From assembly GCA_015709675.1 (NCBI GenBank), contig CP054182.1:723448-787447 (forward strand): a DNA stretch of 64,000 bases. The letters are read 5' to 3'. The stretch comes from Ignavibacteriales bacterium. GTDB taxonomy: Bacteria; Bacteroidota; Ignavibacteria; Ignavibacteriales; Ignavibacteriaceae. The stretch's first letter is position 1. Every line of letters starts with the position of its first letter. Below the pieces are notes generated by a model that made no database searches, was not told the DNA's origin, and worked only from the letters and a program-made list of their open reading frames with translations. The position numbers and the translations under genes are program-made. Below are positions 53,415-62,036 of the stretch, piece after piece.

Positions 53415-54047
53415 AAATTATGAAATTTGAATTTTGAAGTATGAATTAGGCGTGTTTCAAGCAGATTAACGCAGAAACCATTACTAATTTCTTCCTGTAC
53501 ATTGTACACGGATTCGTTTCCCGCAGTCTGTCGCGGCAGACCGCAGATTAGCGAAAAAAACGGTCTTATCGTAAACGAAAACCCGCTCAAAGGTGCCAAG
53601 CCGCAAAGGAGAAATTAATGCAGAGTTTCCGGCCCCCTTCTCCCTTTCTGGGTAGATGGGCTTGGGATGATGGTTCTTATTTAGGGAAGCAGGAATGCTA
53701 AAACATACCGGCAATCTCAGAAATAATGTCACCACTTCGTGGTTTGGGTTGACCAGATTAATTCCTTTGCTAAAATAATACCACCACTTCGTGGTTCCTC
53801 ACAAGTGGTTTCCCGCAGATTCCGCAGATTAACGAAGAAACCATTACTAATTACTCCTTACTAATTACTAATTTATTCCTGTGCATTGTAAATTGTTCAT
53901 TGTACATTGATTTGTTTCCCGCAGATTAGCGCAGATTTGCCCCCTTCCCATTACTAATTACTCATTCCTCATTACCAATTATTTTTGTCCCTTTTTTCTG
54001 ACCCGGGTTACTATTCACCTATCATTCATCATCACAAAGGAGTCCCC
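53415..54047. repeat. Repeat-rich intergenic region
   Basis: No gene. It holds TATGAAATTTGAATTTTGAA (53419-53445), two ATACCACCACTTCGTGGTT-like palindromes (about 53727-53745 and 53777-53795) and TTACTAATTACTCCTTACTA (53842-53876, 53949-53980). GTGCATTGTAAATTGTTCAT followed by TGTACATTGATTT is at 53880-53910. CCCGCAGATT is iterated around 53810-53830 and 53915-53937. Confidence 0.7.
53980..53987 (+). promoter_or_regulatory. Possible -7 element of the choice-of-anchor V gene
   Basis: TATTTTTG followed by TCCC fits TANNTTTG and lies 60 nt before the ATG at 54048. No TTG stands 17-20 nt upstream, so the assignment is tentative. Confidence 0.3.
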
Positions 54048-55142
54048 ATGTTCCAAAGGCTACGGATTACCCCGAAGCAGCATACAGCCTTCCTCTTGGC
54101 TGTGGTTTCCATCAGTTTCTTTCTTTATGCGTATTCATCCGGTATTACGGGAATGACCCAGCTTAATGGCGCGGGATGCACCTGCCATGGTGATCTTTCC
54201 GCCGGAGTAACCGTCAGCATCGAAGGACCGGATACACTGAGTCCCGGTCAGGTTGCCTCGTACACTGTTTCCATCTCAGGCGGACCTCTCACCCGCGGCG
54301 GGACGAATATCGCGGTATCAGGCGGATCTCTGGCCACGCTTCTTGGCTCAGGATTACAGAAAATCGGGAACGAACTGACCCACACTTCACCAAAGCAGCC
54401 GGTCTCAGGCGCTGTAACGTTTGCTTTTAATTACACAGCACCGAACACAACCGGTAATGTAACGATGCATGCAAACGGAAACAGTGTGAATTTCAACGGC
54501 GGTAATGACGGAGATCAGTGGAATTTTGCTCCTTCAAAAACCATCACCGTGGCAAACATTGTTCCGGTTGAGCTGACCTCATTCACTGCGTCGGTATCCG
54601 ACGGTGAAGTTGCGCTGACCTGGTCAACCGCAACCGAAATGAACAACAAGGGCTTTGAAGTTGAGCGCGCTGAGGTCACCGGCGGAATTAAGCAGGAGTT
54701 CACCTCCCTTACCTTTATTCAGGGTTCAGGCACTACCACCGAACAGCGTGTATATAACTATACCGACCGTCCCGGCAAAGCGGGCCTGTATCAGTACCGC
54801 ATCAAGCAGACCGATTTTGACGGATCATTCACTTATTACAATCTTTCCGCTGAGACTGAGGTAACCATGCCGGAGCTATTTACGTTAGAGCAGAATTATC
54901 CGAATCCGTTTAACCCATCAACCCAGATACGATTCTCGCTGGCCTCGGAGTCATTTGTAACCATGAAGATATACTCCATCACCGGTCAGGAAGTAGCCAC
55001 ACTGCTTCAGAAGCAGATGGAAAAAGGAAGCCACAGCATCAGCTTCACGCCTGATGACTACGGCCTTACCAGCGGTGTGTATATATACACTCTTGATGCC
55101 GGTGACTATAAAGCTGCAAGAAAAATGGCGCTGACGAAATAA
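54048..55142 (+). CDS. Choice-of-anchor V protein with T9SS sorting domain
   Basis: A 364-aa exported protein; the signal segment is AFLLAVVSISFFLYAYSSG. The mature N-terminus has GAGCTCHGDLSAGVTVSIEG, the choice-of-anchor V type opening, then an Ig-like domain (SYTVSISGGPLTRGGTNIAV). The usual CxxCH of this family is CxCH here. A linker PVELTSFTASVSDGEVALTW and a complete type A sorting domain (NYPNPFNPSTQIRF...RKMALTK) follow. The start has AAAGGAG 7 nt upstream; the open frame extends to a TTG at 53985, which is rejected. A terminator follows at 55261. Confidence 0.85.
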   Translation: MFQRLRITPKQHTAFLLAVVSISFFLYAYSSGITGMTQLNGAGCTCHGDLSAGVTVSIEGPDTLSPGQVASYTVSISGGPLTRGGTNIAVSGGSLATLLGSGLQKIGNELTHTSPKQPVSGAVTFAFNYTAPNTTGNVTMHANGNSVNFNGGNDGDQWNFAPSKTITVANIVPVELTSFTASVSDGEVALTWSTATEMNNKGFEVERAEVTGGIKQEFTSLTFIQGSGTTTEQRVYNYTDRPGKAGLYQYRIKQTDFDGSFTYYNLSAETEVTMPELFTLEQNYPNPFNPSTQIRFSLASESFVTMKIYSITGQEVATLLQKQMEKGSHSISFTPDDYGLTSGVYIYTLDAGDYKAARKMALTK

Positions 55143-55643: not shown

Positions 55644-57911
55644 TTACTTCAACAACGCCATTTTCCGGCTGAGCACGGTGCCATTTGCTTTAAGAACATA
55701 GAAGTAGGTTCCGCTGCTGAGACCGCTTGCGTTAAAGTTTACAGAGTGGCTTCCGGCTTCGCGGTATCCGTTTACTAAATCAGCTACTTTATTGCCGAGC
55801 ACGTCATAAACCTGAAGCGTTACGCTTCCAGGGTTACCAACAGAGAATCTGATTTCAGTTGACGGGTTAAACGGATTCGGGTAATTCTGATCCAGATTGT
55901 ATTCACCCGGTGAGGCAGCTTCAGAATTTATTCCGGTAACGCCGGATGAGAATAACATCGCCATTGAGCCGGGTGCATTAAAGAAGCCAGGCATGTTACC
56001 CTGTGAAGCTGAGATTACTTCAGCAAAATTTGCGATGGTGGTATCACGCGTAAGGTTTCCGGTAAAAGGAGCTAAATTAAACTGACCTGAACCATACATG
56101 CAGCGAACCATTGTCTGACCCGTAATTATTCCAGCCGGAAAATCTAAGGCTGCAAAAGGAGCAAGTACTGATCCGGTTACATTGATACCTGAAATATGGA
56201 GTTTTTCTGCTTCATAAAAATTGAATAATATATTTTCCTGCACTGCTCCGGTAAGAAAAATTCCGCCAAACATACGGGTGCTGTCACCGCTTACGTTAAC
56301 CAGCACGGTAGAATTTACGGGAACATCTATGTTTAACTGATTTGAACCAAGCAATAAACTGCCATCCAGATAAAATACATTCAGATCAGGATTGGTGCCA
56401 ACCAGACTTATCTGCATTCCGGTATGATAAACAGAACCTGATTGCGAAAGAGTGGCAAGCTGAACCGAAAGATTTTGTAAATGCAGCTTTGCGGCGGGGA
56501 AGTTTATGACGCTGTCCTGAAAAATGCCGCCATCAGCCGAGAATCCAATTGTTGAAGTAATATAATTCTGATAGACAGCTCTTCCGTTATATACACGTCC
56601 GATCATATAGGTAAGATGATTACCCACAACAAGCACATCACCTGAATTTGGAGGAAGCTGATCACCAACACTATAGCCGGTCAGGTTTGCGATTCCGCCT
56701 ACGGCAAGTTTACCCTGAGTGTCAGCAGAGGGCTGAATTAAGGTATCAAGAACAAAAAGATTAAATAGGGCTGCGGCGCCAAAATTAAATGAAGCGGCCG
56801 CAACATTTGAATAATCTACCTGCACCTGAAGAAGAAGCACTGCGGAATCACCCGCGCTGATGTTGCCGGCAGTCCAGATACCTGTGGCCGGATTATATAC
56901 ACCTGAAGGCACGGCTGAAACGAAATCAAAAATATCAGCCAGCTGATCTGATACTTCAACACCTTCAGCATTAGCAGAGCCGGTGTTTTTTACGGTGATT
57001 CTATAGCTGATGATATCTCCGTTGTTTGCGACAATCTGATCAACAGCTTTGTTAACAACCAGATCAATCTGATTGAACCAGGTGATGGTTCTGTGGATGG
57101 TACGTGCGGCAATAGTTGGAGTTGCCAGAATAAGTTTCTGCTTTCCGTTTGGGTCTGCTACATGATAATATTTTGTACCGGCCGGAATTCCAACCGTACC
57201 TGAAACGGAAATAGTTGCATTGGTGACTCCGACGCCTGGGATTATCGTAAGAACTGGTGAAACACCAGTGGGTCCCGTTACGGTTGTTGTGCTGCTAAGC
57301 GTACCCGAAGTAGTTGAAAGCGTAATGGTAACGTTCGGCATTGCAATACCCATGTTGTCAAACGCCTGTACGGTAAAACTGATGGGGCTCCCTATTGCAA
57401 ATGACTGAGCAGGAATATCAACAAAAAATGATTGAAGACTAAGCACATGTGCGTGAAGATTTGCGTCTGCAATAATATCAAGCGCCCTGGTTCTTACATC
57501 ATTAGCGCCTGTAACTCCCGCAACATTCAAACCATCAGCATAATGCCATAAAGCGAGCTGAACCGCCGCAGCTTCTTTTTCCACGGTTGAGGCAGAACCC
57601 GTGTAGGGGTAGGGTTTGAAGGGATAATAATTGTTGAGAATGTAGGTAAGCATACTGTCCGTAGATGACACATCCTGATATTGCTGATTATACGCTATCA
57701 GGTTTGCGAGATCTATGCAGTATAAGTTTGTTGGATTGCCGTCAATGGTGGCATTAAAAGTGCCGGCAAACACTGTCTTGCTAAAAGGAGCCGGCAGCGT
57801 AACATTCACCCCTTTATGAGTGCCGGATACCGTTGCAATGCTTTGCACATCAGCAAACGAATGAACGCTAATTAAAGCGAATAACACAAAAGAAATAAAT
57901 GAGTTGTTCAT
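55644..57911 (-). CDS. Thioester-domain, choice-of-anchor A adhesin with T9SS sorting domain
   Basis: A 755-aa exported protein. After a signal peptide (SFVLFALISVHSFA) comes a domain with NLYCIDLAN (C65) and AAAVQLALWHYADG (Q118). This Cys ... Q-x-A-x-W pattern is that of thioester-forming adhesin domains, which bond covalently to host or surface amines in Gram-positive pili. Then an Ig-like segment (FTVQAFDNMGIAMPNVTITLS), a DUF11 domain (about 282-370, ISYRITVKNTGSANAEGVEV), a choice-of-anchor A domain (about 370-620) and a type A sorting domain from about 675 (NYPNPFNPSTEIRF). It should be displayed on the cell surface by T9SS. Monocistronic, with its own terminator. Confidence 0.82.
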   Translation of the reverse strand: MNNSFISFVLFALISVHSFADVQSIATVSGTHKGVNVTLPAPFSKTVFAGTFNATIDGNPTNLYCIDLANLIAYNQQYQDVSSTDSMLTYILNNYYPFKPYPYTGSASTVEKEAAAVQLALWHYADGLNVAGVTGANDVRTRALDIIADANLHAHVLSLQSFFVDIPAQSFAIGSPISFTVQAFDNMGIAMPNVTITLSTTSGTLSSTTTVTGPTGVSPVLTIIPGVGVTNATISVSGTVGIPAGTKYYHVADPNGKQKLILATPTIAARTIHRTITWFNQIDLVVNKAVDQIVANNGDIISYRITVKNTGSANAEGVEVSDQLADIFDFVSAVPSGVYNPATGIWTAGNISAGDSAVLLLQVQVDYSNVAAASFNFGAAALFNLFVLDTLIQPSADTQGKLAVGGIANLTGYSVGDQLPPNSGDVLVVGNHLTYMIGRVYNGRAVYQNYITSTIGFSADGGIFQDSVINFPAAKLHLQNLSVQLATLSQSGSVYHTGMQISLVGTNPDLNVFYLDGSLLLGSNQLNIDVPVNSTVLVNVSGDSTRMFGGIFLTGAVQENILFNFYEAEKLHISGINVTGSVLAPFAALDFPAGIITGQTMVRCMYGSGQFNLAPFTGNLTRDTTIANFAEVISASQGNMPGFFNAPGSMAMLFSSGVTGINSEAASPGEYNLDQNYPNPFNPSTEIRFSVGNPGSVTLQVYDVLGNKVADLVNGYREAGSHSVNFNASGLSSGTYFYVLKANGTVLSRKMALLK

Positions 57912-58608: not shown

Positions 58609-58638
58609 TTGTTTTATTCCTGAATATGTGTATATTTG
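58609..58638 (+). promoter_or_regulatory. Bacteroidota-type promoter of the DUF4160 operon
   Basis: TTG (58609-58611), 19 nt, TATATTTG (58631-58638): an exact fit to TTG-N17-20-TANNTTTG. The expected transcription start is at or within a few nt of the ATG at 58644, so the first transcript would be leaderless or nearly so. Confidence 0.72.
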
Positions 58639-58643
58639 CACCC

Positions 58644-58901
58644 ATGAGTATAATTAATACACCAAATTTTAGCATTCATGTATGGGGGTTTGATCATCCC
58701 CCGCCGCATTGCCACGTCCGTTTTAAGGATGGTTCAAGTGTATGTGTGACTATACCTTTTATTGAACCAATGTATGGGGCTACAATAAGTTATGCAGTGA
58801 GAAAAGCAATTGAAGATAATCTTGACGAGATTGTGGATTACTGGGATGCCTTACATCCAATTAGACAACCGAAGAGAAAAAATAAAACGAAACTAAAATG
58901 A
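58644..58901 (+). CDS. DUF4160 family protein
   Basis: An 85-aa protein with the DUF4160 pattern HVWGFDHPPPHCHVRFKDG and a C-terminal DEIVDYWDALH helix. DUF4160 genes are very often next to a DUF2442 gene, as here, and the pair is usually viewed as toxin-antitoxin-like or regulatory; neither role is proven. An ATG at 58626 is in frame, but it lies upstream of the -7 element, so the ATG at 58644 is right. It overlaps the next gene by ATGA. Confidence 0.87.
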   Translation: MSIINTPNFSIHVWGFDHPPPHCHVRFKDGSSVCVTIPFIEPMYGATISYAVRKAIEDNLDEIVDYWDALHPIRQPKRKNKTKLK

Positions 58902-60418
58902 TACGCTGGACCAATACCTCATACCAAAAAATCAGGCATGCAAAATTTGCCAACGAAAATGTTGTTGTGATTTTTGAAAATGGAGACATTATTGAAGTTC
59001 CTATAGAAACTTTAATTCCGTTCGATGTTAGGAACATTGAATGGAATAAATTGCATTATAATCCATTTGAAATTATTATTCCTGCAAGCCCACATAGTTT
59101 AGAAATTCCTTGGGATAAACTAAGAGTAATGACGGACAAAGATTTTGCAAAATATCTAGCTAATAAGTCTGAAGAGCAGGCGAAACTTATAGGAGTTAAA
59201 ATTAAACGTCTTCGTGAACGAAATAACCTAAGCAGTAAAAATCTTGCAGAAAGAGCTGGTGTTTCAGCACAAACAATTTCGAGAATTGAAAAGGGACACA
59301 CTGATGTAAGCTTTGGAACTCTTCGTAAAATACTTGCCGCAATGGGTTTTTCATTAAAAGATTTAGCAAATCAGGAAATAGAACTAGAAATGGAAAAAAC
59401 TCAAAAGAGCTTCAATGTGCTTCTGAAAAGATTGAGTTATGCAGGGATTGATTCAAATTTTCTGACACGTAAAATTATTCCAGCAAGAATACAATTTGCA
59501 TTGAATGCCCAACCGCAAAGCGAACCCGCAATGTTACTTGATGAAGCCGCAAGTTATGTTTCTACTATTTATGGTTGGACACTAAACGAAATTTGGGGTA
59601 AAGAAAACTTAGTATTAGGACCCGAACCTGCTGAAATGGCTTTCTTTAAGAAACCAACAAATGCTAATGAAAATCAAGTAAAAGCATACTCTCATTATGC
59701 GTTTTACTTAGCAAAAGTTGTTTTGAAAGCATTTAACCAAAAGAACAGTATTGAATATCCTTACAGTATAGAAGAATTTAAGAATGAATATTTCAAGAAT
59801 TATCAAAACATTGATTTAATTGCACTTTTAGAATTTGTTTGGAATATGGGAATATGTGTTTTGCCGTTAAGCGATTCTGGCGTGTTTCATGGTGCATCTT
59901 GGAATATAGAAGGAAGGCATGTTGTTGTTTTAAAACAAAACACACAATCACATGCTAGGTGGATTTTTGATCTGTTGCATGAGTTGTATCATGTGTTTAT
60001 GCACCTAGATAAAGTAAACACATCAGTTGTTGAAGTTCAAGAAATGAATCCATTTTCGAATAATGAGTCAATGGAAGAACTTGAAGCAAACTCATTTGCA
60101 AATCAAGTGATATTTGGAGGTCGAGCGGAAGTTCTTACCGAAAAATGTGTGACCCTTGCGAAATACGACATCAAAAATTTAGCAAAAGCAGTTTCACATA
60201 TTGCCAAAAGAGAAAGGGTAAGAGAAGATTTTCTTTCAAATTATTTAGCTTTTAGATTGAGTTATCAAGGTGAAAATTGGTGGAGTACTGCAAATAAAAT
60301 GCAAGTGACAGAACCAAATCCATTTACTGTTGCATCAGATTTTTTGAAAGAGAAAATACAAATACAAAAACTCACCCCTATGGACTTTAGTTTATTGAAC
60401 TCAGCACTTGCAAACTAA
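58898..60418 (+). CDS. DUF2442-XRE-ImmA/IrrE fusion protein
   Basis: A 506-aa protein made of three parts. Residues 1-85 are a DUF2442 domain (FANENVVVIFENGDIIEVPIE). Residues 95-152 are an XRE/Cro helix-turn-helix (LRERNNLSSKNLAERAGVSAQTIS). A long middle part follows, then an ImmA/IrrE-type zinc protease domain with DLLHELYHVFMH near residue 360 and a downstream EELEANSFANQVIF motif that supplies the third ligand. In phage and ICE systems ImmA-type proteases cleave repressors to switch genes on. Here DNA-binding and protease parts share one chain. It is AT-rich like the genes that follow, and lies 12 nt upstream of the DUF4186-like gene, so it may control this operon. Confidence 0.87.
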   Translation: MIRWTNTSYQKIRHAKFANENVVVIFENGDIIEVPIETLIPFDVRNIEWNKLHYNPFEIIIPASPHSLEIPWDKLRVMTDKDFAKYLANKSEEQAKLIGVKIKRLRERNNLSSKNLAERAGVSAQTISRIEKGHTDVSFGTLRKILAAMGFSLKDLANQEIELEMEKTQKSFNVLLKRLSYAGIDSNFLTRKIIPARIQFALNAQPQSEPAMLLDEAASYVSTIYGWTLNEIWGKENLVLGPEPAEMAFFKKPTNANENQVKAYSHYAFYLAKVVLKAFNQKNSIEYPYSIEEFKNEYFKNYQNIDLIALLEFVWNMGICVLPLSDSGVFHGASWNIEGRHVVVLKQNTQSHARWIFDLLHELYHVFMHLDKVNTSVVEVQEMNPFSNNESMEELEANSFANQVIFGGRAEVLTEKCVTLAKYDIKNLAKAVSHIAKRERVREDFLSNYLAFRLSYQGENWWSTANKMQVTEPNPFTVASDFLKEKIQIQKLTPMDFSLLNSALAN

Positions 60419-60430
60419 AACAACAATATT

Positions 60431-61042
60431 ATGGCAAAGAAATTTAAAAGAGTTCCTCCAGATATTCCAGTTTCAGATTTAAGTCCACTGAATATATCGT
60501 GTGGCAGCACAAAATGTGATGACGGACTTCACTGTTTTAAAACCAGCGAAAGAACCGCAAAAAAATTTGGCAGTCACGGAGTTTGCAAAGAATGTGGTAC
60601 AAGTTTGATTGATTGGAAAAGAGTCCATCTAAATGATATCAATGATGCTAAATTCATTTTCGAATCTATGAAAAATGAATTGATAAGACATATTTACTGG
60701 CATACTCCAATAGAACAAGATGCTATTACAAATGCTCTGAAATCAACTAGAAATGAACTAAGAACACATGCAAAGAGAATATTAAAATCAAAGATTGGCA
60801 GTTCTAAGAATGCTTGGGATGGCAGACAAACGCCAATGACAGGCAACGAAATCGTGCATTATGCTCAACACGCAACGGCAACTTGTTGCAGAAAATGTTT
60901 AGAGTATTGGCATAACATAAAAAAAGACGAAGATCTAACAGATGAGCAGTTGGAATTTTGCACTGAGCTTGCAATGCTCTATATAGAAGAAAGAGTGCCG
61001 AATATTGATGATAAAAGATCAGAGGAAAATGGCAAATCTTGA
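60431..61042 (+). CDS. DUF4186-like zinc-binding protein
   Basis: A 203-aa protein. The N-terminus has paired cysteines (C24 and C29, then C52 and C55 in VCKECG) that look like a zinc ribbon. The rest has GRQTPMTGNEIVHYAQHATA at about 131-150, running straight into TCCRKCLEYWH, which matches my recollection of the DUF4186 family signature. That family has no known function. The zinc ribbon seems to be an addition to it. It is followed by an overlapping radical SAM gene (14 nt), which points to a shared pathway. Confidence 0.72.
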   Translation: MAKKFKRVPPDIPVSDLSPLNISCGSTKCDDGLHCFKTSERTAKKFGSHGVCKECGTSLIDWKRVHLNDINDAKFIFESMKNELIRHIYWHTPIEQDAITNALKSTRNELRTHAKRILKSKIGSSKNAWDGRQTPMTGNEIVHYAQHATATCCRKCLEYWHNIKKDEDLTDEQLEFCTELAMLYIEERVPNIDDKRSEENGKS

Positions 61043-62036
61043 TACTGAAGTTATGTCCTCAAGTCTGAGAGATAAAGCAATTGATATTGATCGAAGAGCA
61101 ATATTGATTACTAATTTTTCAGGCTCAGAACAAGAAAAAGATTTAACTGAACCGGCTAATTGTAATGGCTTTGGGAGGGTTCGTCATTTTAAACTTGATG
61201 CGGGAAATGATTGGATAAAAAACCCGTTACCCATTTTACCGGCAGCAAAAGCATTAGGTTTAAAACCAGATTCACAAATTCGAGCTCAAGTTTTTCAAAA
61301 TTCAGTTTGCAATTGGCGTTGTTGGTATTGTTTCGTTGATTATAAACTGTTGAAAGGTGATACAAAGCATGCTTCATTTCTAAGTTGTGATGAAATGGTG
61401 GATTTGTATTTAAAAGAAGAGAATCCTGCCTCAGTGATCGATTTAACGGGTGGACAACCTGACTTGACGCCTGAGTGGGTTCCCTGGATGATGCAAACAT
61501 TAAAAGAGAGAGGATTGAATGAAAAAATATTCTTATGGTCAGATGATAATTTAAGTAATGACTACTTATGGAAATATTTAAGTAATAAGCAAATTGATTT
61601 AATGTCTAACTATAAAATGTATTCAAGGGTCTGTTGTTTCAAGGGGATTGATGAAAAGTCTTTTTCACTTAACACAAAGGCAGAGCCAAAATTGTTTTTA
61701 AAACAATTTTATTTATGCCAACGTTTATTGCAAATTAATCTAGATTTATATTGCTACATCACACTGACTGCAAACACGGACACAAAGTTTGACATGGTTG
61801 TTCCAAAATTACTGGATATTGTACAAAATATTGACGAAGCACTACCATTACGAGTTTTGCCTTTAAGAATATTTAATACGTTTACACCTATTGTAAAAAG
61901 AATGGATGATGGGTTTAACGATATGTTGCAAGGTCAATATATTGCACTAGCCGTTTGGAAAAAAGAAATGGCGAAAAGGTTTACCGCGGAACAATTAAAC
62001 CAACCTATTACGGAAATTAAATTAAAAAAATATTAG
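61029..62036 (+). CDS. Radical SAM enzyme of unknown substrate
   Basis: A 335-aa protein with the 4Fe-4S motif C-N-W-R-C-W-Y-C (CxxxCxxC, near residues 94-101) at the first strand and the GG-x-P motif (DLTGGQPDLTPEW) that follows in radical SAM barrels. A leader of about 90 residues (NGFGRVRHFKLDAGNDWIKN) precedes the cluster. No SPASM or second cluster motif is seen near the C-terminus. It would use S-adenosylmethionine to make a 5-prime-deoxyadenosyl radical; the substrate is unknown. The ATG at 61029 has AGAGG just upstream; an ATG at 61008 and a TTG at 61005 are in frame. The methyltransferase gene starts 2 nt after its stop. Confidence 0.85.
   Translation: MANLDTEVMSSSLRDKAIDIDRRAILITNFSGSEQEKDLTEPANCNGFGRVRHFKLDAGNDWIKNPLPILPAAKALGLKPDSQIRAQVFQNSVCNWRCWYCFVDYKLLKGDTKHASFLSCDEMVDLYLKEENPASVIDLTGGQPDLTPEWVPWMMQTLKERGLNEKIFLWSDDNLSNDYLWKYLSNKQIDLMSNYKMYSRVCCFKGIDEKSFSLNTKAEPKLFLKQFYLCQRLLQINLDLYCYITLTANTDTKFDMVVPKLLDIVQNIDEALPLRVLPLRIFNTFTPIVKRMDDGFNDMLQGQYIALAVWKKEMAKRFTAEQLNQPITEIKLKKY

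Follow-up and report, generated by a model that had tools for sequence, protein, structure and literature searches.

A conserved class II-like thioester domain on T9SS-tailed proteins of Ignavibacteriales: likely covalent adhesins

In the searches reported by Walden 2015 (PMC4450167), thioester domains (TEDs) were found "exclusively in Gram-positive bacteria". As described there, the bond-forming Cys lies in a [YFL]C motif and the bond-forming Gln in a strand motif, PhiQzetaPhiPhi, that is called weak; a third motif, the central helical TQxxPhiW, carries a Gln that hydrogen-bonds the Cys backbone in solved TEDs and is not essential in Cpa. In class II TEDs (Miller 2018, PMC6194298), helix 3 is followed by a beta-sandwich and then by the strand P/Q hairpin, which bears the thioester Gln. 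A slipknot topology of this hairpin is a further mark of the class. The Cys–Gln spacing of this class is 195 residues in BaTIE (6fwv), 171 in SaTIE (6fx6) and 204 in EfmTIE86 (6fwy) (Miller 2018, PMC6194298), and 188 in TIEpLS20 of the Bacillus plasmid pLS20 (PMC8092201), to be compared with 193 between the two residues that we favour in the protein described here. The stalk family DUF11, since renamed CLIPPER, often contains a Lys-Asp-Asn isopeptide bond, which some members apparently lack, and its co-occurrence with a Por_Secre tail in surface proteins is known (PMC12617251).

We analyzed a 64,000-nucleotide stretch of an Ignavibacteriales genome (the window; assembly GCA_015709675.1, contig CP054182.1), whose list of open reading frames includes, at 55644-57911 (-), a 755-aa frame encoding a candidate adhesin. 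A first-pass annotation of this DNA had pointed to the stretches LYCID, with C65, and VQLALW, with Q118, both of which are found in the translation. It had also described a TED joined to DUF11, choice-of-anchor A and T9SS sorting domains, an architecture borne out by Pfam and NCBIfam matches above cut-off. In Pfam, the TED (PF08341) matches residues 63-141 with an E-value of 1.5e-8 (35.4 bits against a cut-off of 22), followed by DUF11 (E 6e-20), pAdhesive_15 at residues 377-612 (E 4.5e-46) and Por_Secre_tail (E 9.7e-10), these three likewise above their curated cut-offs; Big_1 is weak at residues 177-236, with 20.4 bits below the cut-off of 34.9. In NCBIfam, choice_anch_A (TIGR04215) is recovered with an E-value of 1.5e-48 (165.8 bits against a cut-off of 29) and the T9SS type A sorting domain with 1.9e-11, above cut-off, and the TQXA model reaches 14.9 bits, below its cut-off of 30.4. 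An LPXTG sortase anchor is absent, the C-terminus being the T9SS sorting domain. Like the TIE proteins with class II TEDs, the window protein carries its TED at the N-terminal tip; unlike them, it ends in a T9SS tail instead of LPXTG. As modelled, the TED extends beyond the Pfam match to about residue 281 and encloses an Ig-like insert (Table 1).

Table 1. Features of the candidate adhesin, with positions in the window and the basis of each assignment
Feature	Positions	Strand	Basis
Probable signal peptide, residues 1-20	57852..57911	-	Translation read by eye; in the model, a helix (2-16) preceding residues of low confidence
TED core lobe, residues 24-157: beta strands, then helices 1-3	57441..57842	-	Pfam TED match 63-141 and model
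C65, predicted thioester Cys; YCID fits [YFL]C-Phi-zeta	57717..57719	-	58/58 rows; motif as described in Walden 2015 (PMC4450167)
Q118, helical VQxxLW Gln, not the predicted bond partner	57558..57560	-	Model helix 110-126; Walden 2015 (PMC4450167)
Predicted Ig-like (Big_1/invasin-type) domain inserted in the TED, residues ~158-243	57183..57440	-	Intimin/invasin profile matches; VIA Z 11.1 to intimin
Predicted TED C-terminal hairpin, residues 244-282, back to the core lobe by homology	57066..57182	-	Strands 247-250, 260-262, 266-277; class II topology (Miller 2018, PMC6194298)
Q258 in GKQKLILATP, predicted thioester-forming Gln	57138..57140	-	Conservation and C-terminal edge register
DUF11 (CLIPPER) stalk domain, residues 283-371, with candidate isopeptide triad K288-D322-N369	56799..57065	-	Pfam; residue conservation; CLIPPER chemistry (PMC12617251)
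Choice-of-anchor A/pAdhesive_15, residues 377-618, ice-binding-protein fold	56058..56783	-	Pfam, NCBIfam, fold match
T9SS type A C-terminal sorting domain, residues 677-751	55659..55883	-	Pfam, NCBIfam

To characterize the architecture across the family, we scanned two sets of complete relatives with Pfam: a short-type set comprising the window protein and every complete protein of 700-900 aa (16), and a long set of 30 of the 46 complete proteins of at least 900 aa; the complete proteins below 700 aa (L126 and L135) belong to neither, and L126 was scanned apart. TED and T9SS tail are present in all 17 short-type proteins, and DUF11 and pAdhesive_15 in 16 each. The long set likewise has TED and T9SS tail throughout (30 of 30), with DUF11 and pAdhesive_15 in 28 each. 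A single DUF11 follows the TED in the window protein, and SdrD_B occurs in 23 of the 30 long proteins, which, as in L101 and L003, also carry BNR/Vps10-like repeats before the T9SS tail and reach frame lengths of up to 2263 aa. Big_1 is detected at E<=0.001 in 7 of the 17 short-type and 24 of the 30 long proteins. The window's genome itself encodes a second TED protein, a 1570-aa frame with SdrD_B, DUF11, pAdhesive_15 and T9SS domains.

An AlphaFold2 model of the TED, built from a 58-row alignment, reached a pLDDT of 89.9 and a pTM of 0.79, and the full-length model a pLDDT of 78.4 and a pTM of 0.53. A Foldseek search with the TED model returned five PDB chains at E<=0.001, namely four class II TED chains (6fwy at E 1.9e-10) and intimin. 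By VIA-align, the same model aligned to 6fwv with Z 16.8 over 244 residues (rmsd 9.5), to 6fwy with Z 14.2 (rmsd 8.0) and to SaTIE with Z 10.6 (rmsd 10.2), the last ranking below most class I TEDs. Across the whole class II TEDs, rmsd values of 8-10 and TM scores of 0.44-0.49 mean that the two lobes are arranged differently or are poorly modelled. Class I TEDs aligned over 138-157 residues at Z 10.6-12.2. With the class I TEDs SfbI (5a0l), CpTIE (5a0g) and Cpa/Spy0125 (2xid), the window protein shares the core lobe (139-157 aligned residues, Z 10.6-12.1, rmsd 3.0-4.0) and the register of the thioester Gln. In contrast to them, it has an Ig insert, and its model shows no helix alpha0 between strand D and helix 1: a strand at 77-81, after the Cys strand, leads into helix 86-94. 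The latter feature is shared with class II TEDs, which also give the top fold matches, as is an Ig-type insert ahead of the Gln hairpin, with model strands 162-242 lying between helix 137-153 and strands 247-262. On these models, the TED of the window protein is class II-like. It departs from described class II TEDs in that the insert is of the invasin/Big_1 type and a helical VQxxLW Gln is retained.

Searched against the PDB by sequence, the whole window protein had no hit at E<=10. The profile of our first alignment, from which six of 39 rows (L042, L048, L061, L062, L064 and L069) were omitted, recovered intimin/invasin chains in the region of the insert, with TED chains no better than E 0.094. 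We also assembled seven Bacillota class II-type plasmid TEDs near the pLS20 adhesin, in which the Cys and the C-terminal Gln are among the invariant residues; the pLS20 row has the two 188 residues apart, and from its annotation and this equal spacing we infer that the gene is the TIEpLS20 of PMC8092201. The match of the 58-row alignment to these seven TEDs by hhalign is weak and centred around the Cys (probability 1.8%, E 0.027), a point of difference from the TIEpLS20 group.

The central question is which glutamine would form the bond. The first-pass annotation took C65 and Q118 as the thioester pair and proposed structure prediction as a check; a TED-family domain with its Cys on a T9SS-tailed protein, in a genome with PorU and SprA, upholds one part of that proposal, but Q118 lies in the central helix 110-126 of the models and Q258 is favoured in its place. 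VQLALW is the helical TQxxPhiW-type motif, and Q118 is probably not the thioester Gln. The distance between C65 and Q118 in a model is no guide to the thioester, because the helical Gln hydrogen-bonds the Cys backbone in solved TEDs. By conservation and modelling, the likely bond partner of C65 is Q258, 193 residues downstream. It sits in KQKLI beside strand 260-262, and the residue before it is a Lys, not a hydrophobic one, so the weak PhiQzetaPhiPhi motif is partly matched.

The position of Q258 was assessed by its register at the C-terminal edge of the structural alignments. Reckoned on the assumption that the last 7-14 aligned residues are gapless, Q258 falls on the known thioester Gln (Gln267 of CpTIE, Gln261 of SfbI or Gln575 of Cpa) in nine of ten structural alignments and is off by one in the other, the ten rows representing three proteins, all of them class I TEDs. 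The residue numbers were taken from PMC4450167 and PMC4282584, and the comparison was confined to these three proteins, to the exclusion of Fne (5dcq) and the class II entries. Applied to the N-terminal edge, this approach lands C65 on the known Cys in one of ten rows and misses it by 4-9 residues in the others, so gaps must occur there. We also considered Q160 (LQSFF), which has the look of a PhiQzetaPhiPhi motif, and rejected it as the bond partner, its column being neither invariant nor nearly so in the 58-row alignment.

The same alignment, consisting of the window protein and 57 of 80 named loci that are the best 80 of 151 relatives, has C65, Q118 and Q258 invariant in all 58 rows at a mean column identity of 48%. 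Q118 was part of one of the two search patterns used to find relatives, and C65 and Q258 were in neither. Q258 is likewise conserved in 17/17 short-type and 30/30 long proteins. A further set of 39 rows, picked by regular expression from 38 of 39 sources (all but L054), has Q258 in 38, L069 being the exception; the Cys and the helical Gln, present in all 39, are uninformative here because the expression required them, which leaves Q258 alone as informative. These locus sets are not independent, as several named relatives may be the same genomes as contigs in the other set. A thioester between C65 and Q118, in favour of which stands the invariance of both residues in 58/58 rows (Q118 having been in a search pattern), is in our judgement very improbable: Q118 sits in a helix in the models, the equivalent Gln is dispensable in Cpa according to Walden 2015 (PMC4450167), none of the seven Bacillota class II-type rows has a Gln in that helix, and the known thioester Gln position is taken by Q258. 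We regard it as quite unlikely, too, that the TED fold is kept without a reactive thioester, as a plain structural or non-covalent binding module. Against this reading stands the invariance of the Cys and the C-terminal Gln at that level of overall divergence, as does the varying number of other TED cysteines, from 0 to 3 among the 17 short-type proteins. In the window protein, the TED region contains no Cys other than C65.

Beyond the TED, DUF11 places the window protein close to the CLIPPER stalks of fibrillar adhesins, in which this domain is likewise found in surface proteins with a Por_Secre tail. Judged from residue conservation, K288, D322 and N369 form a candidate isopeptide triad: the Lys and the Asp are each kept in 16 of the 17 short-type proteins and, differing here from the described stalks, the less conserved Asn in 12. 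The choice-of-anchor A domain of the full-length model aligned to the ice-binding protein 7bwx with Z 18.7 over 184 residues (rmsd 2.5; VIA-align). In this fold and in its TIGR04215 match it resembles choice-of-anchor A/ice-binding proteins; unlike them, it is joined to a TED, and ice binding itself is not implied.

The TED model matched 91 of 164 genomes of the same order (presumably Ignavibacteriales), or 68 of the 109 good-quality ones, and gave no match in 14 control genomes. In a GTDB sample of the phylum, 33 of 395 genomes carry the domain, 31 of 40 within the order and 2 of 355 outside it, a tally that takes 342 unlisted misses as no nearer than the class, in line with how the genomes were sorted. 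The named relatives, again the best 80 of 151, are mostly Ignavibacteria (Ignavibacteriaceae and Melioribacteraceae), the others being MAGs labelled Bacteroidetes, Bacteroidota, Chlorobiota or Chlorobiaceae and one Anaerolineae MAG. A T9SS-like tail, counted by a regular expression for an NPFN-type motif, is present in 65 of the 67 named frames whose 3' end is closed, the exceptions being L072, which is interrupted by Ns, and L126. In a TED phylogeny whose bootstrap had not fully settled, the window protein falls in a supported clade of 17 rows, 16 of them labelled short (among them the broken frame L072) and one long (the open-ended L081). No relatives were found at E<=1e-3 in the plasmid collection, and 68 pattern hits among viral contigs included no relatives.

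Two proteins differ in their anchors. The frame L126:4129-5796, from the Anaerolineae (Chloroflexota) MAG, has the same kind of TED with QKLVLATP, then GEVED, and ends in a hydrophobic stretch and a basic tail in place of the T9SS tail. The tree groups its TED with those of Ignavibacteria, though weakly supported (83/81), a placement that may reflect a transfer with a changed anchor. At L069:7279-7962 (L161), a 228-aa frame with a TED match of 23.7 bits carries a PEP-CTERM tail and has no room for an Ig insert; found in one of 98 genomes of another class of the phylum, it may be a class I TED combined with a further type of Gram-negative anchor.

The genome encodes PorU (972 bits, above cut-off) and SprA, the latter as three above-cut-off pieces within one 2337-aa frame, together with at least 150 T9SS tails (150 of 260 candidates were scored); the tail model also matches 2 of the 14 control genomes, in one of them above cut-off. 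The T9SS route is therefore present in this genome, and the reading of the adhesin as a T9SS-tail protein stands: as in T9SS type A cargo, the protein has the C-terminal sorting domain and its genome has PorU and SprA. Two more large frames, of 1909 and 1809 aa (G000:C1:2987498 and 1480049 regions), match the PorU model below cut-off with 217 and 214 bits.

Building on the observed domains, residues, conservation, fold match and PorU/SprA, we consider it probable that this is a T9SS-exported fibrillar adhesin with a class II-like TED tip and a C65–Q258 thioester that mediates covalent attachment; the formation of the bond, export and anchoring, reactivity and target are the conditional parts of this explanation. 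After Sec export, the N-terminal domain would fold as a class II-like TED and the internal C65–Q258 thioester would form with loss of ammonia. The protein would then pass the outer membrane via the T9SS, its C-terminal sorting domain serving for processing and anchoring. A nucleophile on another cell, a polymer or a particle, by analogy an amine, would attack the surface thioester and thereby be joined permanently via Q258. Spacer and stalk would be provided by the Ig-like insert and DUF11, and a second binding function, of a non-covalent kind, by the ice-binding-fold domain. The covalent attachment to amine-bearing surfaces suggested by the first-pass annotation is plausible by homology. The thioester might instead crosslink the cell's own surface proteins in matrix assembly, which we hold to be rather unlikely. 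In its favour, the named relatives are mostly MAGs with titles pointing to groundwater, fens and the like and no host named, and one domain of the protein has the fold of proteins that bind non-covalently; against it, an N-terminal tip TED with a stalk-type domain is the layout of known adhesins. A role in plain stabilization is disfavoured by Spy0125, in which the thioester adds little stability (PMC4282584).

These TEDs are not a hidden family, since Pfam and NCBI models already detect the proteins; among the papers listed by our searches of the open-access literature, we found no report of T9SS-exported TEDs. The function of these proteins with a conserved class II-like TED and a T9SS tail is likely that of covalent adhesins. 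We see about an even chance that Ignavibacteriales possess their own lineage of T9SS-delivered TIE-like adhesins, covalent at both ends through sortase-type anchoring and a reactive class II thioester tip, with an isopeptide-family stalk and an ice-binding-fold second adhesive module between. If so, environmental outer-membrane bacteria would ordinarily attach covalently, and the device would not be confined to Gram-positive host colonization. A widespread T9SS-tailed TED set in one outer-membrane order places the domain in a different envelope and lifestyle, and such environmental proteins allow one to ask what thioester adhesins bind outside a host. With Q258 named, the bond can be tested by a small set of mutants.

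Comparison of ten window neighbours with 13 short-type loci showed no conserved neighbourhood, because hits were limited to two neighbours, both with T9SS-like tails, and spanned mostly 84-105 aa, rising to 146-211 aa at a few sites in L071 and L075. Adjoining the adhesin gene, 53985-55142 (+) encodes a T9SS-tailed protein of 385 aa with a GCTCHG stretch in its translation. On the other side, 58626-62036 (+) encodes DUF4160, a protein with an HTH and an IrrE-like peptidase and weak RmrA/capP-type PADLOC hits, DUF4186, and a radical SAM protein that matches viperin weakly, and may represent a defence-like or mobile cassette.
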